From Nymphaea colorata (Eukaryota > Streptophyta > Magnoliopsida > Nymphaeales > Nymphaeaceae), in NCBI RefSeq assembly GCF_008831285.2, contig NC_045139.1:5678704-5742703 (forward strand): DNA of 64,000 nt, in the 5' to 3' direction. This document shows, piece after piece, positions 5,458-51,244 of this stretch (position 1 is its first letter; each line of letters begins with the position of its first letter). Both the position numbers and the translations under genes were made by a program. A model generated the notes under the pieces. The model saw only the letters and a list, made by a program, of their open reading frames with translations. It ran no database searches and was not told where the DNA came from.

Positions 5458-6308
5458 TTGTGCATGGGTTTGATCATGCGCAACTTGTTCTTCAATTCCC
5501 AGAAATGGTGCCCTATGAGTCCCTTGGTAAAAAGATCAACTACTTGTTTAGACGTGGATATATAAGTGGGAACAATCTCGTCTTCCGCAACCTTTTGACG
5601 AATGAAGTGTTGATCAATCTCTATATGCTTAGTGTGATTATGTAGAACAGGATTGAATGCAATCTTGATCGCGCTTTGGTTGTCACAAAATAGATATGAC
5701 TGAGCAATGGGAAGAGAAAGTTCCCAAGCAGATGACGTAACCATGAAGCTTCAGCGGTGCCTGCAGCCATTGCCCTATATTCTGCCTGAGTACTAGATCT
5801 GACAACTGCACGCTGTTTCCTGCTACTCCAACAAATAAAATTGGAATCAAGGAAGAGACAATAACCGAAAACTGATCATCTATCGTCTGGATCACCTGCC
5901 CAATCTGCATCAGTACAAGTGGAAATGTTGTGGTCATGCAAAACAGTTGACTGTCATGTGTAGATGAGTCCATCCCCAAGAGTAGCCTTAAGATAACGCA
6001 AAACACGTTTGGTAGCATCCATATGTCCTTCTGTGGGTGCATGCATAAACTGAGAGACTTGATTCACAGCATATACTATGTATGAACATGTAAAAGTGAG
6101 ATATTGCAACATGTCAACTATACTCCGATAGAAACTAGGATTTACGTAGGCATCCCTCCCATCAGATGCATTTAATTTTGTGTTGAGAACACTTAGTGTA
6201 TTTATGGGCTTGCAAATTGTCATACATGCCCTATCCAAAATATCAAGAGTGTATTTATGTTGTATAAGAGTTAATGTGCCACCTTTTCTATCAAGCTCAA
6301 CACCCAAG

Positions 6309-6566
6309 TAAGGGTGGGTATCGGGCCGGCCCGGGTCTCATTTCGGGCCCGGCCCGGGTCTCATTTCGGGCCCGGCCCGGCCCATTTAAATTTAAAAAAT
6401 ATTTTTTAATTATAAAATAATATTTTTTTAATATTAAATGTATTTATTAAGAATAAAAAATATTATTAAAACAAAAAAAATTAAAAAAATATATTTTTTA
6501 AAAAATTTATCGGGCCTAAATGGGCCGGGCCGGGCCGGCGGCGGCCCGGCCGGACGCCCAGCCCTA
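6309..6566. mobile_element. hAT-like MITE of the GGCCCGG family inserted in Copia RT
   Basis: A 258-bp insertion interrupts the reverse-transcriptase frame right after a LYFLGV motif. It is flanked by a perfect 8-bp duplication, CACCCAAG (6301-6308 and 6567-6574). The ends are inverted repeats: TAAGGGTGGGTATCGGGCC on the left, and TAGGGCTGGGCGTCCGGCC as the reverse complement of the right. Both subterminal regions are packed with GGCCCGG words around an AT-rich core. The 8-bp duplication and TAGGG-type ends fit the hAT superfamily. It carries no coding sequence, so any transposase must come from elsewhere. Confidence 0.9.
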
Positions 6567-6709
6567 CACCCAAGAAATACAGTAGTTCACCGAGATCCTT
6601 CATCTTGAATTCCTGTTGCAATACCTCCTTAACATAGGATATATGACATGAAGAGTTTCTAATAAGAACTATGTCATCTACATATATAAATAGTCAAGTG
6701 GTAACTTCA

Positions 6710-6781: not shown

Positions 6782-9700
6782 CTTCTGAGGAAACCAACCT
6801 GTTGTATATGGAGGGAAAATCTATCGAACTATGAACACGATGCTTGCTTAAGCCCATACAGTGATTTTTGTAATTTGCACACCCATTTGGTTAGATCATT
6901 AGACACATATCATGGAGGTTGTTCCATATAAGCTTCTTTCTTTAAAAAGCCATGAAGAAAAGCATTTTTAACATCCAACTGATATAAATTCCAACCATAT
7001 GAGACGGCAAAAGAGATGATAACCCGGATCGTTCTCATCTTGATGACTGGACTGAAAGTCTCATCATAATCTTTCCCATACTGCGGAGTGAAGCCTCTAG
7101 CCACGAGTCGAGCCTTATATCTATCAATGCTTCCATCAGGTTTATACTTGAGTTTGTAAACCCCTTTTGAGCCCACTACATTCTTACCATCTGGACGAGG
7201 AACAATCTCTCATGTTTGACATTCATTTAAGACAGTCATTTCTTCATTCATGGCCTCGATCCAATGTTTGCTTTTGCACGCTTGCGCATAGCATTTTGGC
7301 TCTACCTTTTTTGTTCAATTCTGTCATGAAGAACTGAAAATCCAAAGAGAAATTACCATAACTTACCCATCTATCAATAGGGCGCCACACACGTTCTGAT
7401 CTACGTGGACAAGTAGTGGCAGTTTCTGGATCAACTGGAACTGATCGTCGATTATACACCATTCCTGAAAACCGATTAGGTGAAGTCATGCTCATGTTGT
7501 TGGTCTGAGTAGATGAAGGTATGATGTCCATCTGAGTGTTTGTGGTTGTCTCGAGTTCATCAATAGTTCTGTCACTTTGTGCGTGGTGTGTATCAGCTCT
7601 TTGGTCTAATATTTCAGCATTCAGCCATGAGTCATATACATCATTTCTAACATTAAGTGTTGCATGTGGCTTCTTTAAATCCTTCAACATGAGCTCATCA
7701 AAAACAACATGTCGTGAAATATGCACACGTCCAGTTTTTGGATTGTAACAGCGATAGCCTTTATAATTTTCTGCATAACCCACAAATCTACACATGACAG
7801 CTCGATCTTGAAACTTATTTCTCAAAGAAACATCAACATGAACATACCAGATGCATCCAAAAACATGTAGCTCATCATAATTTGGTTGTTCTTGATGTAA
7901 AATAAAAATGGAGATTTTCCTTCAAGCATGGATAGTGGCAGTCAATTAATAACATGAACAACATTATGGAAGGCTTCAGTCCATAAAGTCATGGGCACAT
8001 CAGTGTTATGCATCATATTGAGAGCACTTTCAACTATGTGCCTATGTTTTCTTTCAGTAATATCATTCTGTTGTGGTGTGTGAGGACAGAAAATCTGTAG
8101 TGATCTCATGATTTAGTAAGTACCCAGTAAATTCATTTGAAATGAACTCACCACCACCATCACATTGGAAATGCACGATATTACTAGAGTATTTGTTTTG
8201 GACCAAGGCGTGGAATTGGGTGAACAAGCGGAAGACTTCTGATTTGCTTTTTATGAAGTGGATCCAAGTATAACGAGAATAAGAATCAATGAAAACAATA
8301 TAATATTTACTCGAGGAAGAAATAAGAGCAGGCCCCCAAACATCAGAATAAATGGTGTCAAATAACTTCGAAGCTCTTTTATTTATTGATTGAAAAGGAA
8401 GAACATGACCCTTACAAATATGACAACTTGAGCACATGCTAGACTCACTGACAGGACTTAGACTGGACTTTTGTAATAGCCCGTCTGCAACAAGACTTTG
8501 AATGAAAGACCAACTACAATGTGTTAAACGACCGTGCTAAAGAGATGGCTTATCATACTCTGTGATATTGACTTCACTACGACTGAGAAAGGATGAATCT
8601 AAAACACAAGACTTAGACACTTTTGGAACTTCTTCAATGACGTACATGTCTCCTTTGCGAACACCCTCAGCGAATGTTTTCTTGGTTCGAGCATCCTTAA
8701 CATAAACAGAAGAAGGAGTAAACTCAACAGAGGAATGAGTATCATCAATAAGCTTTGACACAGAAATGATATTTTTCTTGACATTTGGAACAACAAAACC
8801 ATTCTTTAAGGGTATTGAGAAATGAGTCATGGATAAGTATGCATTTCCAATATGTGATATTTTGTGATGGGAACCATCTCATGTGACGACTGAGCCTTTA
8901 GCTAAATAAGGGAGAGCACTAGAAAGCTTACCTACGTCACTAGTTACATGAGCTGCAGCATCAGAATCCACATACCATTGTCCTTCCTCATTTTGCTTGA
9001 GATTGATTTTAGACAACGCTGTCATTAGAATCTGCTGCGCATGAGGGGAAATGTTCGATGCCGCAGTCGTGTTCGAAACAGATGACCCTGCTGCCTTATT
9101 ATCATGTCTGACCTGTTTTATCTTGTTCTGTGGGTTATGCCAACATTCTGACTTCACATGACCTCTCTTATTGTAATAAAAACAAGTAGGTATCCTTTGT
9201 GGTACATTTGCATGTGCATTTGTGTTAGGTGTAGGTATGATACCTCTCCCCATCCCTGCCTATGAGTTCCAAACTCTTGGATGACTTCCTTGTAAAGCAT
9301 GGGTCCCAGTGACCAATACATTGTGATCGTCAGAATGAACTGATTCATGTCGTTGTACACGACTCGCTTTATGATGAATCAATTTTGCTTTCAAGTCTTC
9401 AAAAGAGGGAAGAACAGGCAATACCTCTAATGCAGTGCAAAAAACATCAAATTCTTACCCCAATCCACTCAAAGTCTGTTGTATCTTGTCCTTGTCACTC
9501 ACTGGATGCCCTATGATGGCAAGCTGATCGCTGACATTTTTTATCTCATGTATATATTCCAAGACTGAACGTGTGCCTCGCTTGATATTCTGAAATTGCC
9601 TCTTCAGTTGTAGAAATCTTGCTTCTGATACTTGAGAATATGTGGTAGCAAGTACATTCTACAACTCAAGTGCTGAAAGATCATCATCAACACCCGCCAA

Positions 9701-18003: not shown

Positions 18004-19349
18004 AATGGCCCCCTGACTTATGGGCATTTTATATTTCACTCGTTGTTATGTAATAAATTCGTAAAAGTTCCGGTCTCTTATAGAAATTTCTCGAAAAATA
18101 AACATTCCCCCACTTTTCAAAGTTGAAATGTTTTATTTTTAAATTCAGGGTTTGGCAATTATCTGAGTGAGCAGGAGAACCCATTAAATTGGAACTTATA
18201 AACAGTGTATCCAATCACAGGGTTCGATGTATATTTTCAGTTCCTATGTTCTTTATTGATATAATTAGGAAAATCAGGTTGGAATTAAACTTGGTCCTTA
18301 TGTTTTTTATTATATATTTCAAGTTTTTATTTCTAGTTCAAGTGCTCTTACTTTTAGCAGTTTTATTTGCTTCTAGTAAGAGGATATTGGTATTTTATGA
18401 TTTAACATATATTTATGACATATTTTATAATTAACATCTCAAATATTTAAAACAAATTCATAATACAATAGATAGTAACATTTCATAAATCTATTTCAAT
18501 CTTTGTAACAAACTTATAAAATAGTAACAACCCGCTACTATTGCCAAATGGTCTTAAAGTGTTTGAGAAATCATCCCTTATTGCAATTTACTGCAGCCAG
18601 GATTTTTTTCTATTTCTAGATCCGCCATATGATTAAAATTTGAAACTATCAAACACACCTTAAAATCAAAATCAGCATTGGATGTAGCAACACATGTCAA
18701 CAACCTCTGTTTAATGTAAAAACCATGAATAATTGGTGCGACCTCATAAATCCCCAACTTAAGGACAAAACTTGGCAAGGAATGTATCTTGTAAACAAAT
18801 GAAGAATTTATGAAACACCCGTCTTTTAGGCCAATAACAAATAAACCCTCAAACTTTGAACTGCTTTTTTTTTTTTTGAAAGTCACAAAAATATTTATTT
18901 TAAAAAGAAATATTAAAATATATGCCCAATTTACAACTGCTTAATAAACGATTATAGATAATAAATTAATTAGAAATTTTTAAATTAAAGGGGCTACGCC
19001 CTCCGCATAGGTGTCTTTTAAAAGGTTTCACTTGAATTTAGAGGGTTCGATTTGTAAATTAATCTTATATTGTAATGTTTCTTTATGCAAAGGGGCTGTT
19101 TGTGAGTTTTCTGAAAAAGGTGAATGCTTATTTGTGATAGTTAAAAGGTTGAGGGCCGACTGGTTATTGGCTCGTTGTCTTTTGTAAATTTTTCAATAAA
19201 TATTTGGCTGGAGTTTAGTTTACGTGAGTTCGTGCGAAGAACATTGATGACAGATCCACTGAGATGCACCAGAGTCTCCTGATCGAACTGGACTCAGAGA
19301 TCTTCATTGGACACGAAGGTGGCAAGAGGTCTCCCACAGATTCCAAGGC
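18004..19349. other. Intergenic spacer between methyltransferase and TNL genes
   Basis: AT-rich, with a poly(T) run near 18868. It should contain the promoter and 5' UTR of the TNL gene toward 19349. No gene is recognised. Confidence 0.45.
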
Positions 19350-22300
19350 ATGGTGTTGACGCTTCCCAAACCTACCAGTACCATCGTCATCTTCACCTTC
19401 CTCTCTGTCGTGTCCGTGACCGTGGCCATTTCCTGGCTACGTAGAAGCAAAAGAATCAACAGAAGCCATGTGGGTCGAATCACCGTCAGTGAAGCACAGA
19501 AGCCGTCGCCCCCACCACCTAAAGGCCATGGATTTGAGTTCGACGTTTTCTTGAGTTTCAGAGGGGAAGATACACGGAAAACTTTCACCGAACTGCTCTA
19601 CGATGGCTTGGAGATGCAAGGGATTCACACGTTCAAGGACGACGAGAAGTTGAAGAAGGGGGAGAGGGTCGAATCATTGCTCGACGCCATTGATAAGTCG
19701 AAGCTCTTCGTCCCCATCTTGTCCAAAAACTACGCCGACTCCAGATGGTGTCTGATGGAGATAGCCAAGATTGTCAGTAGCGGGAGGCTGATCATTCCCG
19801 TGTTCTTTGACGTCGATCCTTCCGATATACGGCGGCAGAAGGGCCCCTTCGAGGCGGCGTTCAGGAAGCACGAGGGTAACAAGGAGCTGACTGAACGGAC
19901 GGTGGACGAGTGGCGAGGTGCCCTGAGAAAGGTGGGGGAGATTTCCGGCTACGACCTTAAGAACGAGACAGACGGGTAAGTAATTACGGAGACTCATCTC
20001 TGATTACAGAACAGATCTTGTGGTAATCTCACAGAAATCAGGCAATCACATAATTTTTTCCATCTGGATGAGATCCAAAACTATTGGAATCAAGTTTTAG
20101 AAGCATCGTTTTGGTGTCAAATCGGAGAGATTTTTTGTTTGATTGACAAAAACCAAGTTTAAACTAAAATTTGTCAAGAAAAACTTGATTTAAGATCACT
20201 CCAACGTAGTTTATTGGAGATGAGGTCTCGTGATCCTTTCCCTCTTTTACTTTTCCACCGTCGTTACTATTGTTGGTCTATTTTCGGCCGGCCGCTGGCT
20301 AAAAAGATCAGACTGGTAGGGTCCTGGCCGGATGGTATCACTCCGGCCGGCGGCCAACCGAAGACGGCCAGAACTAAAAGAAGGTATATCTGCAAACGTA
20401 GTTGTGGGCAACCTCAACTGCACTATTTTCTGGCTGATGAATAATGGCTATTACTATTCCGCCAGACATTTAACCAAGTTAAGCTCAGCTTTTTTGCAAA
20501 CCTCTTAGGTCACGTAGAAAACTTATAGTTTGCTTCACAGGCAGGTTTGTGCCACTGTTGATCGGAGCCTTTCCTTTTCAACCGCTAAGAGCATTGTGAA
20601 GGAAGTCATGAGTTCATTTCTTTCAAAATTCTATGCATATGTATGTGAACTCCATAGTTCAGAACCTACAAATTGATTCTCAAGCGGATTTAACTACTTA
20701 ATGTGTGAATAGGATTTTGTAAGAACGAAATATTTGGGGCTTTAAAGTTCTGAACTTCCATACATCATAAAATGTGATGTGTACCGAACAAAAAGAGTGG
20801 ATACAAATAGGATTTATAACGATAAACTATTTAAGGCTCTAAAATTTTTGACATTTTGTAGATTATAAAATCTGTCCCTAGCTATCAAAGAAACAGAGTC
20901 AATGATCCAGCTTTGAACTGTGTAGACCTATGTCACATGGGTATGTGTACGGGTGCCAGTTCTGGTATGGGTATGAACCATTTTTAAAAAACTTGGGTAC
21001 GGGAGTACGGCCGTACAAACACACACACATATATATGTCAAAAAATTTCAAACAGAATAACATATTCACACATATATATATCAAAAATTACAAAGAGAAT
21101 AACATATTGTCATATTCATAAATCATAATCAAAAATTTATCAGTCTTGATTCTCATTCTCCTCAGTCTCATAATTAACATTCAAAATACATAGCTTTGTT
21201 GATTTTCATTCTCCTCACTCCTCAGTTGCATCATCAAGATTAAAAGGAACAACAGGTTCTGTAAGATCCATATTAAGAGCATGCAATTCATGTTCTCCTT
21301 CAAGTTCTACGTCAATGTCCTCTGCCCAATACTTGGATGATCCTGAACTGCAAGTTGCAACAAAATCAAAATATGATTTAAGTTAATATAATATTAACTT
21401 TAATTAAACAACCAACATAATATACATATGTATACATATCAGAGATAAAAAAAGAAAGAAATACCTGTAATCATTTGAAGTACGTGAAAGTAAGCGTAGG
21501 TTGGAGTGGACATAAACTAAATCTTTTGCTCGCTTACTAGTTAGCTTGTTTCTCTTGATGTTGTGAATTTGAGAATAAGTGCTCCAATTTCTTTCACAAC
21601 ATGAAGAGGTTGCAGGTTGAGATAATAACTCAATGCAAGATGTTGGAGATTTGGTGTCAATGCTCCAAAACATAACCACCAATTAACAGGATCTTCTTCA
21701 TCTTTTGCCATTGCAGCTTGTATTGAATCATTTCTTCCACCAGAGAAGCTCACAAACTCATTATTTATTATCTTCAACCGATGAGAATCAGAATATAGTC
21801 TTCCCAAACATATCTCCCTATTTTTTGATATTTCGATTAGGAGGAACACGACCAGTACCTCCTGCCAACCATGTTTGTCCATAATATTTGGGATTTAAGG
21901 AGTGTGCCATACAATGCAAAAGGTTATTGCTTTTGTTCCATCTTCTTACTAAAATTCTATGCACATGATCGAAAAACTCAGAATTATCAAGTGCAACATT
22001 CTTCTTCTCATGTCTAAAAATGATGTTTTGAATTTTTTTAATCATGTTATCTCACATATCATAAACTTTATGAAGCATGGGCCCTTCTTTATCAACTTCT
22101 CTCAACATCTGCCAAATAAGCTCTGTAAACTGCAGAAAATATGTAACTTTATCCCACCATTCATCATCTAAAATGCATTTTTTAATTTTTTGATCCTTCA
22201 CAATGTCATCATTCCGATAAAACTTCCAATCATTGTCAGTCACCATAAGTGTTAATGCATGTTTCACCTGCTTTATTCTTTTTATCATTACAATAATGGA

Positions 22301-25300
22301 TGCAAAACAAGTCTCTGCTACCTTCAACAATTTCAAATCAGAATGCCTATTAAATATAGAAAGAGCATTGTTGTGGTTTAGAACAAAATTTCTGATGTTT
22401 CTGACATCATGCTCAAGCTCCTCAATCCATGAACACAAGAAACTGACATTTGGATCATCTTTTGATGGGTTGCAAATACTTTTAAGTGCTAGATTTATAC
22501 TGTGTGCCACACAATGAGTCTAGAATATGTGACCATACTTGGGATCACTTGCCAAATTCATTACTGCTTGTTGGCAAACTGGAGCATTATGAGTAATAAT
22601 TTGCACAACATTATCTTCACCCACTTCTTTGATGATTTCTATAAATAGCCCTTTTAAATACTCAACATCTTTATACTCCCTGGATGCATCAACACATTTC
22701 AAGAAGATTGGTCCATCAAGCGAATAAGCAATAAAATTTATCAAGGGCCGCCTTTGTATATCAGTCCACCCGTCAGAAACAATGGATACTCCATATTGTT
22801 TTCATGAAAATTTCTTCTTCTCTAATAATTTTTCAATGTTTGTCTTCTCTTCTGTAAGAATTATTGTTCTTAACTTCTCTGAACTCGGGGTACATAACCA
22901 CTTAAACTGCAATTAGCCAAACCTCTAACAACATCTTTCCAATAAGGACTTCTGGCTACATTAAAAGGAAGTGAACTTGCAAAAAAGAACCTTCCAATCC
23001 TTCTATCCATCTCTGTCGTTCCCATATTATTGAATGCTTGTGCTAATGTTTCTTTTTTTTGAAGCATCTTCACCTTCTTCAATAGCATAAAGAGGAACAG
23101 ACACACTTGACTTGGATGAAGATTTCTTCGTTTCAGCTGCATCCTGTTCTTTTTTTAATATCTTAATCTCATCGTTGGTAACTTTTGGGCATGGTCTAAT
23201 TCCAATGCCTGAAATATGCAACAAATGTGCCTTGCAACGTGTATAAGAGCCCGTGAACATCATATCACAAGATTTACAAGAAAACATTACATTCCCACCA
23301 CCACCTGGTCCTTTTTCTAGTTTCTTCACATAGCGCCAAAGTGGCTGAGATGGATTATCCTTCTCTACTGTAGCGGTATTAACACTACCACTGCTGCTTT
23401 CTACATTTCTGCTTCCTGTAGGCATCATTTCTTTTCCTTTATCAGCCATTACAACTTATGTTTTAAAAGCACCTACCTAGCAAAAGAGCTGCAACACAGA
23501 ACCAATAGAAACAAGGATCATTCCAAATAGACGAATCCTCTCACGAAACGATATATCATAGCAATAACTAGGGAAGACGCAAAGATGAAAAATCTGCAAT
23601 AGGAGACTCAAACATTCTCATTGCCGAACACATTTATCAAATTATCAACACATTGAATAATTCCAAACACTATAAAATCCTGCGTCTCATAAAGAAGGAA
23701 GATCTTGGATTAATAAACTCCAACCTTAAGAAAAGAAAGAAGGAAGAACGTAAAAGGGAAAAAAAGCTCAAAGAACCAGATGAACAAAAAGCACTTGAAC
23801 CCTGTTTGAGTCTGATGTTCAGCAAGAGACCCAGGGGCTCGTTTCACTCCAACACATTTCCAATGTTATGAAAAATCCAGCAATGAAGTTCATTAAATTC
23901 AAGAAAAAAAAACATAAAACAATTTCATGTTAATTGAACCAAACAAAAGAACTAGACGAACAAAAAGCAATTGAATTCGAAAACAAGAAAAAAAAAGAGG
24001 TACAACAAGCAACAATTTTACGAATCCAAAGAAAAGGAAAAAGAAGAAATGGGACAGGGAGAACGATCGGTCGACAACACTAGTAAAGTAGGAAAACCAA
24101 CCACGACTCATGACACCAAGAGAGAATAGGTGGGAGAAAACCACACAGAACCGAAAACAGAAAATAGAACAGGGGTAATAGACACAAACTCAAACATTAG
24201 AACCAAAAACAGAAAATAGAACAGGGGTGGCCGTCGTCGCCGGCGGCGAAGGCAGGGATGGAGTAGATGAAAATGAAAAGAAAAATGAAAAAAATACCGT
24301 GACAGTCGCCTCCTGCCATCGCCTCCTTCCGTCGCCGGTTGCTGCTGCCATTCCGCCCCTGCCTTCACTGCCGCTGCCTTCATCGCCGGACGTCGCTCGA
24401 TGAGAGGTAAGACAGAAGCCCTTAAAACTTAAAACGAAAACATGTTTTAAGTTTTAAGGGTTTCGAACTTTTTTTTTTTTTAACGTTGAAATGGTTTTAA
24501 AAGATAAAATCAAATAATCGTTAAAATTAAAAACAGACATTTTTGGACTCAGTCAAATTTGACCGTGTCCAAAAAAGGACGGATACGGCCTCCGGTGCGT
24601 TGACCGTACGCTGCACCATTGGCGTACCCAAGCCCGTACCCATATCAGTACCGGTGTCGTACTGGTACCGGGCGGGTACTCCTCCTTTGGAGGAGTACCC
24701 GTGTAACACAGGTGTAGACACATCATTATGGTAAAAATCATGTTTGCTGACAAGAACAAGTAAAACTGAGTAGGTTTTCTTTCATTCATTTAGGAAGATT
24801 TGTACCAAAAATCAGGGCATCAGAAAAGGTTAGCACCAAAACCTGGTCCTAGAAACCAGGTTATGGTAAAGATAAACTAAAGTGAAGCAAATTTCAGTAA
24901 CCATTTTCTGGCCACTGTTTCGGAAATGGGGCAGCTAAGATAGTCAGAAAGAAAGCAGAATCAACCCTAGCCAATGAATTTTGTGGCCAACGGGAATGAA
25001 AGTCAATCAGCTAGCTATGAAATGCGCTAAATGAGTCAAGAAGTTCAAAATGAAATAAATTGAAAGAAACAAAAGTTTGATAATGTTTCGGCCGGCATAT
25101 GACACGAAAATTAGCTTTGAGTTGAATAAACGACCAATTGTTTCTGCAGAGACAAAATTTTCTTTCTCTGCCGTCTTTGGTCAGTGATAACAGTCAGAGC
25201 AGAGCACCAAAAAGAGTGGTGCCAGTTCAGCCATTCTTGGCCGACCTCTGGCCAGAAATGCCAGGCAAAGCATGCGAACGGTTACCACCATCCTCCTTGG

Positions 25301-28300
25301 GTGTTCAGTAGAGGAGAAGTGGGAAAGGGAGGTTACCACCACCCATAGAGTTGGATGTCTGTCTTTGCTTGCGTAATGTTATATATATATATATAAGTAT
25401 GTATGTACACACACACACACTTTCACTCGGAGATATCAATGTTAATGCATTTTTTGTGTGACTAACACTCTGTTTGGATGGAGGGACGTAGAAAAGGGTA
25501 ACCAATTTTGTGCTTGGATGTCTAACTATGAGTCTATGACTGAGAGAAAAGAAAGCAAGGAAGACAACAAGTAACTTTTTTCCCTCCCATCCCTTTATTT
25601 TCCCGTCTGTAATCATTTTTTATTCTTTTCTTTTCCTTTAATTTCCTTTCCTTTCCATCCTTTTGTTTCCCTTAATCTAAACATAAGAGTGCAAATGTAT
25701 GTTCATTCTAAAGACCTCCGGATCAACAAGAAATTCATGTTTCGTTGATGCATAGATATAATTTTATAAGCTGATAATTTGTTGACTGCCAACTTTTAGA
25801 TCCTTACTTGATCGCATCTATGCATGGAAAAACTGATTTTGCATTGATGTCTTAGGTATTCAGATATGACTGTTGCACTATGTCATTAGTGTCATGTTAA
25901 GCAAATTACTAAGCTAAACTACATTTTACTCCACCATGCATGATATTTTTCACAGACACAGGATGTGTTAAAGTTGATAGTGAACACATACCTTTGCTTT
26001 TCTACATTTCTTTAACATTGGAGCTTATTGTATTGCTGATCATAACATATGTAACGCCTTTAGATTATAATGTGGCAGGCATGAGGGTAGGCTGATCAAA
26101 ATTATTATTAAGAGAGTTCTTAGTGAATTAAATGAGGTCCCCTTTGATGTAGCAAAGCAACCAATTGGGATTGAATCCCGTGTAGGAGATGTCATAAAGA
26201 TGCTGGACATGGAAGGCAATGATTTTAGAATGGTTGGAATCCATGGTGAAGGTGGAATAGGGAAGACCACCATTGCTAAGGCTGTTTACAACCAATTGTT
26301 CCCTAATTTTGAGAGCAGTTGCTTCCTCTTTGACGTTGGCAAAGTGTCAGTGCAATCCAATGGACTTGTCACTCTGCAGAACTGTCTGCTCAATGATTTT
26401 TTGAAAACAAAGAACATATCAATATCTAATGTCGAGCAAGGAATCAGTATAATTAGAAGGAGAGTTAGTCGCAAAAGGGTTCTGCTTATTCTGGATGACG
26501 TTGATCATATAGATCAACTAGGTAAACTTGCAGGAAGTCCAAACTGGTTTGGTGAAGGAAGTAAGATCATCATTACAACAAGAAACAGAGATTTGCTAGT
26601 AAAGCATCACCTCAAGGAGCATGAGATATACAAGCCTAAAGAACTGGATACGGATCAGTCACTTCAATTGTTCAGTCGCCATGCATTTATGAATGACAAA
26701 CCAATGGAGGGTTATCTTGAGTTGTCCAAGAAAGTTATTAGATTCACAGAGGGGCTACCATTAGCACTCGAAGTGTTTGGTTCACTTTTTTATGACATAA
26801 GAACTAAAAATGAGTGGAAAGAAATGATAGAACAGTTGGAACGTGTTCAAGACAAGGATATTTATGAAAAACTGAAAATAAGTTACGAGGGACTGACTTC
26901 TGAAGAAAAGATAATCTTTTTAGACATTGCTTGTTTTTTCGTGGGATCAGGAAAAGAAGATGCAATTTTAATGTGGAAGGATTGTGGCCTTTTCCCAAAT
27001 ACAGCAATTAAAGTCCTTGTTCACAAATCTCTTGTTAAGATTGACAAGGACAAGGATAAATTTGTAATGCATGATCAAATACGGGATATGGGAAGAAAAA
27101 TTGTCCGAGAAGAAGGCCTTTTGTACCCGGGGCTGCGCAGCAGATTGTGGGGTGTGGATGACGTCTTGCGAGTGTTGGAAAATCCAGAGGTATGATCTTA
27201 CTGTTGACAGCTTATACCATTTTAAAGAACTAACTCTGTTAATTCTATGACATCAAAATTTTTGTAATACTGATATAACCAGGTCCAAGGTTCGACCTTT
27301 ACTTAATTACTTTAACAGAACTGGCTGCTTAGAAAAAGTTTTACTCATTGATGTGACCACTCCATGCATCTGGAGCTAATAATGTTCTGGACTACCGTCC
27401 AAGAATGTAGACTTGGATGGGTCTTTCAAGCTATAAATTGGTTGTAGGAAAGTAAAATATGTAAGTGTTGAATAAGTCAAACAGCTTTTAATTTCTTCTT
27501 AAGCTGCATTTTTTTTAATTAAATGTTGCATTCTTGCTAATAGTAAGTTTAACAACATCTGGGTCCCGGTTCAGATAAAAAGACCTGCCTTCTTTTATTT
27601 GGGTTGATGGACACTGTTGGCTAATGCCTTTGTCTACATGAAAAAAGTTAAAGCATCTATTTTTCTGGCATTGAGGTTATGGCCATGCTGCAAGTGATGG
27701 CCAATCAAAGATCCGAAACACAGTGAACAAGGTACAATGTAACTGTGTAAGCTGTTTGTGTAGTTCCCTACACAAAATCTGAGTGCTTTTTTTGTGACAC
27801 TGATAGAGAAAGGAGAAATATTTGCAGAAAACATTGCTTTGCTGGTGCAGCCCAGCTGGTGGGACTTCTTTTTAACCAATAATTTTATCAAGGTATCATC
27901 AGTCAAACCAAGTACTATATACAGCAACTGAATAGGACTCAAATACAGCCAAACTAGCCCCTAAATCAAGAACGCAGACCCTCAATGAACTTCTGATCAT
28001 TAGGGTCTTAGTTACCAAGGCTTAGTTTAAGTCCACACCATATCAGTCAGTTACATTTCCTAATCCTTTATCATGACTGGCATCAGGTAATTTTCAATCC
28101 ATTCTTATCTTATGGTGAATGCTGGCTTTACATTTTTATTTTTAGGAAACCCGGAATGAGACTGAAGGCATCTTCCTCTATTTCACCTCCCAATGGAAGA
28201 GACATCTTTATCTTTCAACGAAGGCCTTTTCGACAATGCCCAAGCTCAGAATGCTAAATCTTAATTTTTCAACATTCCAAGAATGTGATCTTCAACATTT

Positions 28301-31300
28301 TCCTCGGAAGCTAAAATGGCTGGAATGGAGAGCATGCCCCTTGGAGTCCTTGACATGGGATGGCAATCTTCTGGATCTTGTTGTTCTTGATCTATCTCAC
28401 AGCAAGGTAAAGCAAATATGGAATGAGAAGACACTGAACATGGAGCTCAGGGGACCGTTACATCGAGGAAACATGGTAAGTACCATTAATTTGGTAAACA
28501 CAAAAGTTGTATGCATTAATGGCAGCAATTATTTATGCTATGAAACCGAATTTTTCAACTGTCAGGATGCAGAAGAGGGAATTGATGTGATCTTTATTAT
28601 TGAGATTTTTATCATAGGGAAGTAGGTTTGTCTAGGGTTTGGTCTTGAGACTTTTAACCATAAAAAAACCACCTCCCTAATGCCTAGCATCAGCGAGGCT
28701 TTGTCTTTGCCACTAAAATGTACCATAAGTTGGATACTCTCAACCATGCTGCTAGGTTTAGCAATGACAAATTCATGAGAGAGCATTGGTGTTTAGAGAA
28801 CATTAATGCTAAACTGATCATGTTTTAGTTCTTGCATGCTCTCTTTTTCTCATGAAAGAAATGGTTGGCAGGTATTTCGCAGACTGAAGGTTCTCAATCT
28901 CAGCGGTTGCTCAAGTCTTGTTGCAACTCCTGACTTTGCTTGTGTTCCATGCCTGGTGAAGCTGATACTTGATACGTGTTATCATTTGCTTGAAATTGAT
29001 GAATCAATTGAATGTCTTGAAGATCTGGTTTACTTGAGTATGCAGTGGTGTGTAGCTTTAACAGAACTGCCCACTGGTGTTACTAAATTGGGCTCTCTGG
29101 AAATCCTTAACCTCTCTAATTGCCAGAATATTTGGGCTTTGCCAGAACGAGTGGGGGAAATGGAATCATTAACTGAAATGTGCCTTGACTCCACCCAAAT
29201 AAGAAAATTACCAGAGTCCATTGTGGAGCTGAGTAACCTATGTAAGCTATCCTTAAAGGAATGTGCATTGTTGGAAGAGCTGCCACATTGCATTGGGAGA
29301 CTGGAATCGTTGCAGGTGATCAACCTTGAAGGAACTGCGGTAACAAAATTACCTGATTCCATTGGCGAGCTTAAAAGCCTCAATCAGCTGTCTCTGAAGG
29401 GTTGCAAATTATTAGAACTACCAGATTCCATCGGGCAGTTGGAATCTCTTCGGGACCTTATCCTTGATGTTGCTTTCCTAATGTCTATACCAGATTCCAT
29501 TGGCAATTTGAACAGTCTTCACCGGCTATCTTTAGAAGGTCATGAATTAATTAAAAGTGCACTGAGTTCTACAGAGAGAGAGAGTCCAGAGGAGACAATT
29601 ACCGGGTGCAATCTAGTAACAAGACTGCCTGATTCTATAGGACACTTGAGGAACCTCCATCAGCTATGGGTAGATGGATGTCCTTCACTGGTAGAGCTGC
29701 CAGATGCCATTGGAAACTTAGAGACCTTAGAGGAGCTCACCCTTGCTGGCACTAAAGTAAGAAAATTGCCCTGTTCAATAGGGGAGTTAAAGAACCTCTA
29801 TATGCTATCCTTGAAGGATTCTGAATTATTGGAGGAACTGCCACAATCCATAGGAAATTTAGAGTCCTTAAGAGAGCTTATTCTTGACAGATGCACTTCA
29901 TTAAGAGACATACCTGATTCAATAAGATATCTTCAGAATCTTTCTCAATTATCTTTGAAGGAATGTAAGTCTCTAGAAGAGGTACCAGATTCATTTGAAG
30001 ATTTAAAGTGTCTGAAAGAACTTATCCTTGAAGGTACTTCACTGAAAAGGTTGCCTAATTCTATAGAAGGCCTACATAACCTTATTCAGCTGTCTCTTAA
30101 TGGCTCAGACCTTTTTGAAGAACTACCAGATTCAATTGGAAGGTTGGAGTCCTTAAAGGAGCTCAATCTAGATTCCACCAGAATAAGAAACCTACCAGAA
30201 TCCATAGTGCATCTGAAGAACCTAAATCAGTTATCTCTGTATAAGTGTGAATTACTAGAGGAAATTCCGGAGTCCATTGGAGAATTAAAAAGCCTTGAGA
30301 GTATAATGGTAGATGAATGCGGAAAGCTCAGATCTCTGCCAGATTCAGTTGGGTTACTGGAAAGACTTGAGACACTGTCAATGAATGGGTTGATGGACAT
30401 GAGAGTTCTGCCTTCCTCCATGGAGAAGCTGAAAAGCCTGGTCCAGTTAAACATATCAAACACTGGAATCAGGGAAATGTTCCATGAGTTTGGAGGCCTC
30501 ACGAAGCTGAAAACTATAGATCTGAGCAACAACCCTGAGCTAATCGCTCTTCCTTCGAGCTTTTTTCTACTCAGCTCCTTAGAGAAGTTGGTTGCCCATG
30601 GTTGCAACTGGCTAGAGGGTGTGGATGCTACTTGTTTTGGAAAACTACCATCTCTAAAGATACTAGACTTAAGCCATAGTGGATTCTGCAGCATACCATC
30701 AAGTGTCCGTAGGCTTTCTTTGTTGGAGGAATTAATTTTAGAGGACTGCAAGAGGATTCAGTCTCTGCCTCGGCTGCCGCCTTCTCTGTGTACCCTCGAT
30801 GCCAATGGGTGCACAGCATTGGAATCGATCTCAGACATTCCTAAATTAAAGGTTTTGAGTAACTTAAATCTACGTGGGTGCAGGAAGCTTACGTCTCTCT
30901 GTGGCCTTGAGCGATTGAAATACTTAACATGCTTATACATGGATGGCTGCGAAAGCCTTGGTGCTGACATCATGGAAAGTCTTTCAAAGGTACTTGCTTG
31001 GTGTGGTAGCGTGCTTTCCATAAAAAAGAAAAAGAATTTAACTCTGTAGACTAGCAGTTGAAGGCATTGTCACAAATATTGTTCTCAGATTTTTATTAGC
31101 AAGGTTTTTTTGATGTTCTAATCGGAAAGTTTGTTTTTGTCAAGCAATTCTGAGAAACTTAAAGATTAAAAAATATAATAAGAAGAACTATGAAATTTTG
31201 GGTTTTCTACTAATTTTCCTGCAAAGACTTTTTTTGGTACATAAGACTTTGGGCAAAAGTTCAAAATATTTAGTAATGTTAAAAGAAACCTCAAAAACAA

Positions 31301-35476: not shown

Positions 35477-37000
35477 ATTAAGAGCGAGAGAATGAGAGAT
35501 AATAACTTATGCGATTAATTTTACGATATTATTGAATCACTACAATACGCAAAAAAATCACAAGATGAAAATTATTGACAAACGTGAGAACCAATAGTTA
35601 AAAGAAACAAAATTAACTTAAAGGGCATTCCAGTCTACTTTGGCTTTAAAGACAGCCAGACACTGAAAGAACGTGCTTTTGGTTAGTGGTACAAAAACTT
35701 AAACGTGTTGTTGATAATATAGAAACCTAATGTTTTTTATTGTTTTTCAAACTTCAGGTGTGTTAATTTTGAGAAATTTCCTTTTAAAGATGTCACTTTT
35801 TGTTTACGAAAATTCTCCCGTTCACATTTCCTCAAAAAGGTTTTTCACCACCTAATCTTTGGCCAGTTTTCTAAAATTAGAGACTTTCTTTTATGGTTAA
35901 AATAATATTAAACACTTGGAAGAAAATGGTATATATATATATGTTAGATTGCAAATTATTTAGATTTTTGGTTCAGCATGAAGAAAGTGTATACCCAAAA
36001 GTTGAGGTTATATGTAAAGCTTACGCTTAAGAGAGTTCCTCGTTAATAGTCCAAGGGATATAACAATGCAACACTTAATTGACAAGCGGTCAGTAACTTA
36101 AATATTAACAACAAAGGGAAACAAATAAGAGTTTTGGTCTCATAAGACACTAAGTAGAAGAAGTTTTCACACTCTCTTTTTTATAATCATAAGCTATAAA
36201 ATAGGAATGCATAATAAAATTTATGGATAAAAAGTCTTTTACATAAAAAAACAAGTCGTAAAAGCAAAACAGAATAATAAAATATAGAATACAACAATGT
36301 AATAAAGCCGAGTAAGAAAGTTGGGAGGGAACAAGTGAATAGACGGAACAACAGAATCACACAACAACAAGTGAAAAACTAACATGCCACAGAATCAGAC
36401 AAGTAAAACTACTATACTTGGGACGTATTCTCTCATTATCTCACTTCTCTTATATTGAATTAATTGTTTACGTATTCTCTCATTATCTCACTTCTCTTAT
36501 ATTGAATTATATCTTATATTGAATTATATTGAATTAATTGTTTAGATATTGAAGTCGGTAGACGTTCTTTTCCCAAGAAACTTCATCTTTGTTTTGTCCT
36601 TGTGGCTCTACCTCTTTAATGATGTTTGAAGAAGAAATATATTTAAATTAAATATAAATAAACCACTATCTTCTTAATTGTCGTGTGACCAATTCTCCAT
36701 ACAGTGACGCGTTTATTTTTGCCAACTCAACTTTAGAAATGTAAGAAGAGTTCTCAGCTTTTTCTTTTTGATTTGTTTCTTAACTGCGGCGTTGAAATAA
36801 AAAGAAACCTCAAATTTCAGACTTTTTTTTTTAAAGCCACTTTTTCTTTCTGAAGATCATAACAAATGGCAGGTTTCACCATTTCATCTCGACTAATTTT
36901 TAGATGTTAGAAACAACCGATGAAATGACAAGTTTTTCATTTCTTATAATTCCAATCAACAAAAAGTTGACGAGGCCTATTTCCATATTACTGGATAATG
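35477..37000. other. Gene-free spacer with a small tandem repeat
   Basis: AT-rich, stops in all frames; contains the 47-bp duplication at 36424-36517. No gene or RNA recognised. Confidence 0.5.
36424..36517. repeat. 47-bp tandem duplication
   Basis: Two units (36424-36470, 36471-36517) begin CGTATTCTCTCATTATCTCA. The second is followed by shorter ATATTGAATT repeats to about 36545. Confidence 0.85.
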
Positions 37001-37199
37001 TAGGGGTGGGTATCGGGCCGGGTCGGCTAGGTTTTCCTCGGCCCGAGTCAGCCCGTCGGGCCTGAAGCCCGAGCCCGGCCCGTAATATTGCTGGGTACCG
37101 TGCCGGGCCGGTCCACCCAAAATGAGGCCCAGCCTGGCCCATTTGGCGTGCTGACGCCCGATGGCCCGGCTCCCCTTCCGTCTCCCTCCCGGAGCGTAG

Positions 37200-37321
37200 G
37201 AGCCACCGCCGGACTTCAGCAGAGAGTGGAGAGGAGGAGAAAGAGGGAGATGGGGTGCAGGAGCCACCGCCGGACTTCAGCAGAGAGCGGAGAGGAGGAG
37301 AAAGAGGGAGATGGGGTGCAG
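37200..37321. repeat. 61-bp purine-rich tandem duplication
   Basis: Units start GAGCCACCGCCGGACTTCAG at 37200 and 37261, with one visible difference; a third partial start is at 37322. The sequence is GC/GA-rich, unlike the AT-rich neighbourhood, and may have come with the captured sequence. Confidence 0.92.
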
Positions 37322-37389
37322 GAGCCACCGCCGGGCTTCCCCTTCCCTCCGGCCTCCCCCTCCCGTCTCTCGACCCGGCTTCGTCGTGA

Positions 37390-37600
37390 CTGTCACAGCG
37401 TCCGGCAACCCAGTGGAGGAGAGGTTCGAGCTGCAGCCCAAGGAAGGGCTGGCCATCGTCAGCGGCACGTCCATCAGGGCAGCGATGGCGTGCCTAGTGT
37501 GCTACGACACGAACGTGGTAGCGGTGCTGGTGGAGCTGCTGTCCGCCATGTTCTGTGAGGTGATGTAGGGGAAGCCGGAGTTCGCCGACCTTATGGGAAG
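37390..37600 (+). pseudogene. PAL: Phenylalanine ammonia-lyase (PAL) coding fragment
   Basis: From 37425 the plus strand reads FELQPKEGLAIVSGT, then DTNVVAVLVELLSAMFCEVM, a TAG stop (37566-37568), then GKPEFADLM. PAL proteins have a near-identical run, FELQPKEGLALVNGT...LSE.LSA.FCEVMQGKPEF, so the stop replaces a Gln (CAG to TAG). Just before it, TVTASGNPV resembles the PAL segment holding the Ala-Ser-Gly that forms the MIO cofactor. In real PALs the two are separated by about 45 residues, so an internal deletion is implied; this second match is weaker. PAL converts phenylalanine to cinnamate at the entry to phenylpropanoid metabolism. The fragment is under 15% of the usual ~710 residues and cannot be functional as PAL. 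Confidence 0.82.
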
Positions 37601-38513
37601 GGGGGAAGGGGAAGGGGAAGGGGGAGGGAGACGGGAAGGGGGGAAGCGGGGAGGTAGTCGGCGGGCCGCCGCCGGGCCGGCCTCTCCGGCCCGGCCCGAC
37701 GCCAAGCCTTATAAGAATATCAAAGACGGTGATGTTACAAAAGGCAGGCCTCTAGATGAAATATTTTATTTTGCTTATCGTTTAACATGCCACCCTTTTT
37801 AGCCAAGATAATTTAAATCCCATCATATGTTATGCGCCATAATATATGATATGCTATAGCCATTTTGCATGACGAGGACAAAAATTTTAGCCATATTTAC
37901 AAAACTGGATCTTTCCTTGCTCATTTTTCTTCAGCTCTCATTTGCATGGTCCAAACGCTTGTGGTTTTCGCCTTGAAGTAGTTGCTGTTCGGATGCATGA
38001 AGCACTAAGTATGACGACGGCTTTTCATAACTATTTAGTGAGCTTAGAGATTTTTTGATTGTGTATACTCGATTTATTCCATTGATCTATGTTTAAACTT
38101 CAGGTTTTTTTTTTTTACAGCTTTTTTATTCGAATTTTCGCGCGTTTAACATGTTTGATTGCTAAAGCCACCATAAACCATCACTAAATAATAACCGTCA
38201 TTAATATTATAGTGACAGTTTTTTAATGACAACTTCTAAATTTTAAGCATTTGATAACATCTAGTAGTATTGAATCTTATATATATAATATTTTTTGTTC
38301 ATTATACACATTAGAAGATTTTTTTTTTAAAGATTTTTTTTCTTCCAAAGAATTTAAGCCCGTCAATTCCAATAAAGAGACTCACCAGCAACTCCAGTGC
38401 TGGACTGGAGAAGAACCAATCCCAATCATACAGTCTCATTCTAATCTTTTTGCACAAATGGCAGAAAAAGGGGAACGTGAGTGAGGGAGAAGGAGAAATA
38501 TGAAATGGTGTTG

Positions 38514-39160: not shown

Positions 39161-39300
39161 TAAGGGTGGGCATCGGGCCGGTGAACCTGGCCCGGGCCCG
39201 GCCCGATAGCTTGGGTTGGCCTGGGCCCGGTCCGGTCCATTTGAAATTAAAAATTAATTTTTAATTATAAAATATTTTTTAAAAATATAAATTGTATTTA
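39161..39300. mobile_element. GGCCCGG-family MITE, right end missing
   Basis: Starts TAAGGGTGGGCATCGGGCCG, followed by GGCCCGG words and the same AT-rich core (TTTTTAATTATAAAATATTTTTT-like) as the copy at 6309. The right half is absent. It is truncated or internally recombined. Confidence 0.75.
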
Positions 39301-40068
39301 ATAACCTATCTGACAAATGCTATTAAAAACTCTCATAAAAAAACTTGTTATATTTCCTATGAGCTTTTCTTATAAAAAACTTGACATCTTTCTGACAAGC
39401 GTTTCTCATGTTAGAAGGAAACTATCCATTGGGTATTATTTTTTCATTACTATATATGTAAAATCTTTTACAATTTTTTTTTATACCAAAACTTTTTTTA
39501 GGGTGTGTTTGTTTCTTTAAATGAGAATGTTAAATATTTATTATTATTATATATATATATATATATACATATATATAAAAGTGCCCCATCAAATTTGAAT
39601 ATTTTTAAACAAGTGTTCCTCTAATCAATTTTTCTAGCTCCGCCATCTGCCATTGAGGTCCAACCTTCCATCCAACCTTGAATTCACAGTTTTTTACATG
39701 AAGATCTTTCAAAACAATTTTTTTTTAATGGAGCTTCGTATCTAAAACAACCTAAATGACACAAAAAATCAAAGTATTGCTTGTTTACTTGAGTCATGAC
39801 AATATTCAAATTGGTAATTCTGTTTAGATTTGGCACGGAATTTCTGTTTGCGTGTTTTTGTTAAGTTTTTTCTAATGAAGGCGGTGATGTGAAGAATTTG
39901 AAAACTTGAGCACATTATTGTAATACGCTCAAAACGTGATCCTGTTGCTGTGAATTTGTGAAATATTCTCGTGTATATTCGGATGGTTGCCCTAAAACCC
40001 CTCAAATCCCAGGGCTCTCTGAATCGATCTTCTTCCCTCTCTGTGTGTCCACCGCCCACCTTGTTCTA
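39301..40068. other. Promoter-side spacer of the HAS1-type helicase gene
   Basis: Contains a (TA)n tract at 39547-39577 and a GCTCCGCCA repeat piece near 39640. The last ~100 bases form the 5' UTR. No TATA box is clear. Confidence 0.45.
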
Positions 40069-41488
40069 ATGGAGGACGACCTCCAGAAGAAGATGAAAAA
40101 GGAGAAGAAGGACAAGAAGAAGAAGACTAAGAACGAGGATGAAAACGAGAACGAGATGCCCTCAAACATAAACGGTGACTTTGCTGCAGAAGCCACTCCT
40201 CCTGTGGAGGAGAAGAAGAAGAAGAGGAAGAAGGAGAAGGAGAAGGAGAAGAAGATGGCCGAGAACAAGGAGGTGGATGAAGTAGAGAAGAAGAAGAAGA
40301 AGAGGAAGAGGATGAGCCAAGGACAGCAGGAGGAAGAGGTGGAACTTGCGAGTGAGAGCGATGCCGAGGAGGAGGAGGAAGAAGAAGAGATGAAGGTGGA
40401 GGAAGATGCTAATAACGAGGGGCATTCAGAGGGCGAGGGAGCGGAGGAAACTGGCGAAGGTGCGAAGAAGCCAAAGACTGGTGGTGGTGGGTCGGGGATC
40501 ATGAGCTCATTGACGTTTGAGGCGTTGGAGCTGTCGGAACTCACAATGAAGGCGATTCAGGGGATGGGATTCAGCAATATGACGGAGGTAAGTGCTTATG
40601 TTTGCGGAATTGCGGTGGTTGTAAATCCTACTTTTGGAGGAAAGAATTCGTGTTCGGTTTTGAAGCACGCGGAAACTTTTATAGTTCTTGTGAACTGGAT
40701 AGTGCTTTGGTTTTCTTAGAATTCCGTTGTTATTGAAGTATAAGTTTAAACTTTAAATTATTGCTCACCGGATCTTTATCTCTTTTGTATTTTCAATTTT
40801 ATTATGTTATCCTGAAAACCTGGAACTTCAGCATTGAATGGCCCATGTGCTTGACGAGTTTTCCCATTACATTGGGTAATCTTGGATTTATTATTACAGA
40901 AGTAGGATACTTCACCATGTTTCAAGTGTCTAGTTTTCATCCTTTCAATAAGGAAAATTGTTTTATGGATTAGATGGAAGGACTTTGAACAAAAGAGAGG
41001 AATAAAATGAATGATGAAACATCATCTGCTTATAATTGTTATTAGAGAAAGTAAGCTTATGCTTTTGTGATCTAGTTTGTGCTACTGAATTTCTTGAGCA
41101 GTTGGTTATGTTGTGGAAGGGTAATCACCTGAACGTAGACACTGGGGAAGCAAGTCCTAAGGGGTTTAGCAATCTTTCCGGAATGTAATACCTAAAGCAA
41201 TTCCGTTAACAGGAAACTCATTGGAGTATGCCTCAATAACATTGGATGGAGATGGTATTCGACTAAAATGTGGTTCCAGATTTGATGTTCGTTTTCTAAA
41301 AACCAAACATTCAGTTAGCAGAATATACTACAGTGTTTTTACATCAGAATGACCTAACAATGTTGTACAAATCCATCATCATGCTATAATTACCTTTATA
41401 AGTAAGATGTATGTCACGTGGATGCAAGGTGCGGGTGCGGTGTGGCACATCCCAAAAAGATTGGGTGCGGGGGTGCAGCGAGGGTATG

Positions 41489-50805: not shown

Positions 50806-51244
50806 TAGGGATGTCAATATATCCGATTTGAATCGGATATCCGACAGATCCGATCCGAAAAAATCGGGTATGGATAAAAATTTAATATTCGATTAAGAAA
50901 TCGGATCGGATTCAGATTTAATAAATGACATCCGATCGGATTCCGATTCGGATATACATGAATATCGGATCGGATACGGATTTGGATCGGATTCAGTTTT
51001 AGACAAATATCATTTATCTAATACTTGAAAAATGGCAAAATCCGGTTCAAAATTCGGATTCGGATTCAGATATAAATATAAAAATCGGATTCAGATCGGA
51101 TTCAGATTGTAAACTCGGATTTTGGATTCAGATTCGGATATGACTTTGCTTTATTCGAATTCGAATCTGAATCCGAATCCGAATATATGAATATCCGAAA
51201 AAATGGATATGGTTGAAGATGTATCCGATCCGTTGACATCCCTA
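50806..51244. mobile_element. hAT-like MITE of the GGATTCGGAT family, nested
   Basis: A perfect 8-bp duplication CTTGTGAA (50798-50805 and 51245-51252) flanks 439 bp. The left end TAGGGATGTCAATATATCCG pairs with the right end reverse-complemented, TAGGGATGTCAACGGATCGG; the first 12 bases are identical. Nearly the whole body is made of GGATCGGATTCGGAT words and their complements, converging on a central AT-rich part. It is intact and so probably the youngest copy of this family in the window. It inserted into another MITE. Confidence 0.92.

Follow-up and report, generated by a model that had tools for sequence, protein, structure and literature searches.

A non-autonomous hAT-type element carrying a decayed piece of a PAL gene in Nymphaea colorata

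The element at positions 37001-37711 of the window (the whole 64,000-nucleotide stretch of Nymphaea colorata DNA that was analysed) is a decayed member of a family of small plant transposons and a clear case of an already known process. It is very probably a Pack-type, non-autonomous hAT element, whose family captured a piece of a PAL gene once and then spread it. PAL catalyses the first step towards lignin and defence compounds; the DNA captured from its gene amounts, across the copies, to about 500 bp of the PAL gene on contig C9, made up of the end of exon 1 and 7 nt of the intron. The features by which Pack-TYPE elements are recognised are found here: a host gene piece lies between the element ends; no transposase was recognised inside the 711 bp when they were compared with the peptides of the hAT relic in the window; a parental gene exists; and PAL pieces occupy 12 loci on 9 contigs, as expected of an element mobilised after capture. 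Donor gene, capture edges, deletions, neutral decay and amplification are all readable in one assembly.

In the sequence of events proposed here, genomic PAL DNA would have been copied a single time, through a switch of template while a broken element was being repaired or replicated. A hAT transposase supplied in trans would then have worked on the element ends and spread the piece, internal deletions would have shortened the PAL piece during this spread, and further template switches would have placed pectinesterase and DUF641 pieces mid-element. The focal copy would be a silenced, decaying passenger without protein function.

Structure of the focal element

The focal element has a GC content of 68% and lies between flanks of 30% and 35% GC; its first letters are TAGGGGTGGGTATCGGGCC and its last GACGCCAAGCCTTA (Table 1). 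The first-pass annotation had matched its ends to those of an intact MITE at 6309-6566, and the match is borne out: the first 21 nt agree at 20 positions and the last 25 nt at 22, and both end regions outscore all 500 dinucleotide shuffles. The similarity of the focal left end to its own right end is not significant (25/500 shuffles equal it), and the inner TIRs are unconvincing, being equalled by 18/500 and 158/500 shuffles. The hAT TIR consensus is short, starts with TA or CA and has G at position 5; the focal TIRs fit it, reading TAGGGGTGGG and, from the right, TAAGGCTTGG.

Table 1. Positions in the window of the focal element, its parts and two relatives
Feature	Position	Strand	Remarks
Whole element, 711 bp	37001..37711	+	Member of a non-autonomous family of hAT type, 12 copies of which, this one included, carry PAL; identified by ends and sibling copies
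Left terminal and GGCCCGG-rich subterminal region	37001..37170	+	Score 43 against null mean 18.5; 0/500 shuffles equal it
61-bp tandem repeat, 2.3 copies	37198..37339	+	Short matches of its parts (query 224-324) occur at further loci that have the family ends
Polypyrimidine inner arm, directly left of captured PAL piece	37336..37376	+	Partly complementary to 37595-37652
Captured PAL block A with active-site codons T-x-T-A-S-G	37377..37412	+	Left junction in 11/12 copies
Captured PAL block B	37413..37590	+	Donor L026 positions 1021-1198; 88.8% identity; PF00221
TAG in PAL frame; CAG in C9 gene	37566..37568	+	
Polypurine inner arm, directly right of captured PAL piece	37595..37652	+	
Right subterminal and terminal region	37653..37711	+	Score 46 against null mean 20.3; 0/500 shuffles equal it
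Left flanking 8-mer GGATAATG, expected target-duplication site	36993..37000	+	Matches right flank at 4/8
Right flanking 8-mer TAAGAATA	37712..37719	+	
MITE of the focal family, 258 bp	6309..6566	+	Perfect duplication CACCCAAG at 6301-6308 and 6567-6574
Third member, sharing left end and AT-rich interior with the MITE	39161..39304	+	Score 108 against null mean 23.2; 0/500 shuffles equal it

An 8-bp target duplication is the mark of hAT elements. The focal copy lacks one, its flanking 8-mers being identical at 4/8 positions, or at 5/8 at best with shifted boundaries, and its hAT label therefore comes from the family and not from the copy itself. Four or more mismatches between duplicated flanks would be expected in 5.6% of cases at a per-site difference of 20%, and in 0.5% at 10%. 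Given these low odds, it is more likely that matching flanks were lost by rearrangement, or were absent from the start, than that they decayed. With its mismatched flanks, the focal copy may be rearranged or composite.

The hAT-type family

The family has many members and has transposed in the way of hAT elements. Its end sequence is TARGGGTGGGYATCGGGC, and the left-end motif has 536 + 532 = 1,068 matches in the genome at up to one mismatch, while the reversed control has none. The focal element finds at least 99 matching pieces in its own genome (408 Mb, 783 contigs), a lower bound since 40 of 123 candidates were scored, and these include further copies with the PAL piece; 20 loci, and one longer, were fetched for comparison. 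Duplications of 8 bp occur in the MITE, in PAL copies, in PAL-less relatives and at motif matches. They are perfect in six of the 12 PAL copies (L022, L023, L027, L028, L029 and L031); at canonical boundaries the flanks of L037 agree at 7/8, of L024 at 5/8, of the focal copy at 4/8 and of L030 at 2/8, and for L021 and L032 only one of the two ends was detected. Among six PAL-less relatives fetched, L025, L038 and L039 have 8/8 duplications, and L035, L036 and L040 have no convincing pair. The first eight motif matches listed comprise four perfect duplications, one of 6/8 and three with none by the rule used (at least 10/13 TIR letters and at least 6/8 flank letters). As the right end was picked with the duplication in view, this rate of four in eight is not a blind one; in L071, the same duplication is compatible with two right ends. 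The proposal of a non-autonomous hAT-type family that has taken up a host gene piece thus stands, on the 12 PAL copies, the donor gene and the perfect duplications in half of those copies.

At the third member of the family in the window, at 39161, a right end was looked for and none was found. No transposase with the family ends was seen in the window or at the loci compared, and the peptides of the hAT relic in the window match none of those loci. The TIR 18-mer had no match in viral contigs; its 12 exact matches in unrelated bacterial records were taken as chance. Among the literature matches listed for the TIR strings, there was neither 15-letter form and nothing on plant transposons.

Other sequences in the window

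The hAT transposase relic lies at 21407-22801 on the minus strand, with DUF659 (E 4.1e-27) and Dimer_Tnp_hAT (E 2.6e-6) domains in broken frames. No matching pair of family ends was found alongside it, and a nearby piece at 23030-23455 has no Pfam match. The relic sits between the TIR and NB-ARC parts of a region on the plus strand, 19263-31046, in which TIR, NB-ARC and LRR domains follow in order; this region represents a resistance gene of the TIR type, whole or in pieces. At 50806-51244 there is a hAT-like MITE of 439 bp with TIR TAGGGATGTCAA and a perfect 8-bp duplication CTTGTGAA, and with ends unlike those of the focal family. A generic scan of the window for an 8-bp duplication with a TIR returned this MITE plus TA-repeat artefacts; it missed the MITE at 6309 because the two ends of the latter are too dissimilar for the scan rule. 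A retroelement relic occupies 7244-8536 on the minus strand, with a retroviral SH3-like domain (E 2.3e-29) and an integrase piece slightly under cut-off. A Lys/Glu-rich open frame on the plus strand at 39940-40719, which begins 2.2 kb beyond the focal element in the downstream direction, has no Pfam match; it resembles the start of a nucleolar DEAD-box helicase.

The captured PAL piece

The frame at 37389-37565 matches the Pfam family PF00221 (E 1.6e-10) and solved plant PALs (best E 1.1e-14), so that the PAL likeness noticed between the ends is confirmed. The span given for it in the first-pass annotation, 37190-37680, was too wide, since PAL-derived DNA covers only about 37377-37590; 37198-37339 is tandem repeat and 37595-37652 is polypurine. 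Over 178 nt the piece is 88.8% identical to the C9 gene. It falls into two blocks: the roughly 110 nt of PAL that join the ASG codons to the FELQPKEG block are gone from the focal copy and kept in L027, L031 and L032. Block A did weakly in a first test (90/2000 shuffles and 66/18,042 window segments were as good), and its 20-aa query found no match among solved structures. It is accepted as PAL because sibling copies show it, running on unbroken with PAL in L031 and L032, its own score being too weak. A complete aromatic amino acid lyase is not encoded by the focal copy, which has about 214 nt with a stop against a donor frame of at least 621 codons.

The stop had been ascribed to a single C-to-T change, from CAG to TAG, and correctly so, because the C9 gene and most comparable copies carry CAG. 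Six other copies reach that place: L022, L024, L027 and L030 have CAG, L021 has CAA, and L023 has CAG with the preceding base lost.

The donor gene

The donor on C9 has an exon 1 at L026:259-1380, an intron of 2,977 bp (L041:5681-8657) that starts GTCAGT and ends TTGCAG, and an exon 2. The joined exons give 621 open codons as far as read, which is a lower bound. The PALs on C10 and C12 are without an intron at this site, the coding sequence running through, and the C9 intron is possibly an intron gain. Searched against the genome, the first exon of the C9 gene gives 17 matches, all of which were scored: itself, four PAL loci (C10, C12, C4 and C14, those on C4 and C14 being known from alignment alone) and the 12 captured pieces. 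The first-pass annotation had proposed to look for other copies with the same ends and the same PAL piece; counting the focal one, there are 12 PAL-carrying copies in the family. The annotation also raised the possibility that the same arrangement might exist at the native PAL locus; with up to 3 mismatches allowed, 9.9 kb at C9 contain no family left end, and the right end has three weak look-alikes there, unpaired and with 2 mismatches each. With its two exons, open frame and lack of a family left end in this interval, the C9 PAL has the properties of a parental gene.

A probable single capture and subsequent amplification

The 12 PAL pieces are those of the focal element and of L021, L022, L023, L024, L027, L028, L029, L030, L031, L032 and L037, and each of the 12 adjoins family end or subterminal sequence. 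In donor coordinates, the PAL sequence extends over 893-1387 in L027 (90% identity), 879-1103 in L031 and L032, 1021-1271 in L021 and L023, 1020-1271 in L022, 1021-1272 in L024, 1050-1271 in L030, 1021-1198 in the focal copy, 1041-1123 in L028, 1045-1123 in L029 and 1350-1387 in L037. In L027 and L037, PAL ends 7 nt into the C9 intron, which has no counterpart in the PALs on C10 and C12; these 7 nt have one mismatch in L027 and none in L037.

A tree (HKY+G, 394 columns with gaps) was built from nine copies and five PAL loci, three copies being omitted as too short. The nine copies form one clade (UFBoot 95), sister to the C9 PAL (100); branching order within the clade has supports of 16-82. 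A single clade of copies beside C9 argues for one capture followed by amplification. The left junction GGCTTCGTCGCGACTGTCACGGCG is present in 11/12 copies and absent in L030, with up to 4 differences allowed. Upstream of the PAL left edge there are at least four different sequences, which are not neatly explained by simple capture and deletions.

L031 and L032, on contigs C8 and C4, leave PAL at the identical base (donor 1103) and pass into polypurine DNA. Although they lie on different contigs, this shared exit suggests that their deletion is probably a common and later one.

Decay after capture

When nine copies are compared with the copy majority, junction excluded, 63 private coding changes are found, 25 synonymous and 38 non-synonymous. 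With the same mutation spectrum, neutrality predicts 25.6 synonymous changes of 63, and the changes after capture fit it. The copies share 14 differences from C9, 11 of them at third codon positions. At positions 1056, 1074 and 1212 the C10 and C12 genes agree with the copies, so it is the C9 gene that changed there; at 962, 963 and 1070 they agree with C9, and the copies changed. The third-position bias of the shared differences fits a PAL gene that remained under selection after the capture.

In block B of the focal copy, all eight private changes, the CAG-to-TAG stop included, are C-to-T or G-to-A, six at CG and two at CHG sites. The corresponding share is 5/5 in L030, 16/26 in L027, 3/6 in L024 and 6/12 in L031. 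Transitions at CG and CHG sites are the pattern left by loss of methylated cytosines, and suggest that the focal copy has probably been silenced.

Other cargo and the inner arms

The longest copy, L027 (C8:23643289), carries more than PAL. Its PAL piece is joined, 7 nt into the intron, to a piece with pectinesterase motifs. The Pfam pectinesterase match has an E value of 0.00094 in L027 and 1.4e-5 in L037, both under the model's own cut-off, and the piece matches a solved pectinesterase with E 0.0082. Its best DNA match outside the elements, among many similar places, is on C5 (84%), where an open frame reads GTVDFIFGN, which we take to be a pectinesterase motif. A third piece of L027 matches C1 at 80% over about 170 nt. 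Thus L027, on C8, combines pieces matching C9, C5 and C1. L025, which is PAL-less, matches focal positions 1-278 at 85% in its first part and has a DUF641 piece (E 2.6e-16) where PAL sits in others.

In L027, an open frame of 204 codons at element positions 89-700 runs from the PAL piece, ASG codons included, into the beginning of a pectinesterase motif; it may be a chance product of GC-rich DNA.

In L021-L025, the cargo is flanked by complementary polypyrimidine and polypurine arms, equalled by 0, 2, 4, 7 and 0 of 500 shuffles, respectively. The complementarity of the inner arms is weaker in the focal copy, where 33/500 shuffles are as good. Eight elements were tried, and L027 and L031 are unscored, no right arm having been detected there. 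Together, the varied upstream contexts and the arm-flanked cargo suggest repeated template switching. A bolder and rather doubtful reading is that of a recurrent hAT cargo bay, with PAL or DUF641 held at one and the same point between the arms and a PAL cassette of fixed left edge carried across at least four backbones. If this were true, exon pieces would be traded by repeated template switching at the apex of a palindrome, and not merely arise through a single capture with later deletions, and many unrelated gene pieces should lie between CCCGTCTCC and GGAGACGGG arms.

Alternative explanations

Gene pieces could also be acquired by fusion of neighbouring insertions, in which two family members flanking host DNA are mobilised as one, a model that section 9 of PMC8903248 attributes to Catoni et al. 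2019. The mismatched outer flanks of the focal copy are what would be expected of a fusion unmoved since, and another left end with the same orientation is found 1.45 kb further downstream. This explanation is nevertheless unlikely, as the donor locus on C9 has no family left end over 9.9 kb, L027 combines pieces matching three other contigs, and the focal interior is GC-rich compared with flanks of 30-35% GC. The flank 8-mers, considered as possible traces of fusion inside the focal element, have no good internal copy (best 6/8) and were rejected as such. There is still less reason to regard the captured DNA as a retro-copy with PAL mRNA as its template. It is nearly all exon, but intron-derived nucleotides (7 nt) terminate PAL in two copies and the family has TIRs and 8-bp duplications, and this origin is hardly credible. 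Capture of genomic DNA by template switching is preferred over both, and models of exon uptake by cut-and-paste elements, neighbour fusion against template switching, become directly testable in this family.

As to a function of the captured piece, transcripts of the element might give rise to small RNAs acting on PAL mRNA. Runs of at least 21 nt identical to the donor exist, the longest being 24 nt in the focal copy and up to 61 nt in L032, and the whole focal element folds better than 20/20 shuffles (z -2.58). However, the PAL block occurs once within the focal element and is not itself an inverted repeat, the inner 521 nt fold like shuffles (z -0.99, 18/100 as good), and the focal copy has decayed at CG and CHG sites, as expected of a silenced copy. 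A trans-silencing role is possible, though little in these sequences favours it, and we consider it very unlikely. The chance that the captured frame makes a functional new protein is smaller again and close to negligible. Open frames of 296 aa (L022) and 204 aa (L027, PAL to pectinesterase) might speak for it, but long frames arise by chance in GC-rich DNA, and the opposite strand of L022 also has 296 open codons; the synonymous share equals the neutral expectation, and a stop, a lost base and deletions occur among the copies. For PAL biology the family carries a caution, namely that PAL-like reads or gene models may stem from transposon cargo.

Comparison with known systems

Gene capture had been introduced in the first-pass annotation as mostly described for MULEs. 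Such capture by MULEs is on record, but the emphasis undersells the record for hAT elements, which includes maize Ds, grapevine Hatvine-6 and maize Pack-hAT. In the extracts of PMC3260210, gene-piece capture by hAT elements is termed rare and yet shown in maize Ds, with gene fragments in 2 Ds2 and 9 Ds-l4 elements. Like the present copies, Ds-l4 and Ds2 are non-autonomous members of the hAT superfamily, and they contain filler DNA that in some cases was copied from a gene located on another chromosome; their ends differ from those of the focal family, having an 11-bp Ac-type TIR and AAACGG repeats (PMC3260210). Hatvine-6 is likewise a hAT family whose interiors often match genic or non-genic host DNA, and its members, in the text excerpted from PMC2528002, share transposase sequence, whereas none was recognised in the present copies in one search. 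For PAL itself, PMC3695323 deals with MITEs of carrot that lie next to or close to a PAL gene, which is not capture, and the literature listed for PAL with Pack-MULE was unrelated.

Template switching followed by transposition has been proposed for multi-copy Pack-TIRs in the FoSTeST model, whose copies, like those described here, are structurally varied; the extracts of PMC8277862 describe them in animals, the named hAT case being the frog Pack-hAT-N8_XT. There is a close likeness to the Pack-hAT elements of maize, which, in the section available from PMC8903248, are also non-autonomous TIR elements with host coding pieces and 8-bp duplications, forming multi-copy clusters with internal cargo and conserved ends. 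The present cargo is PAL, the host plant has TIR-NBS-LRR genes, and, unlike in that account, donor, junctions and deletions can be traced. Pack-hAT elements are already known, and the PAL-carrying family joins them as a case in which the donor gene and the successive stages can be made out with unusual clarity.
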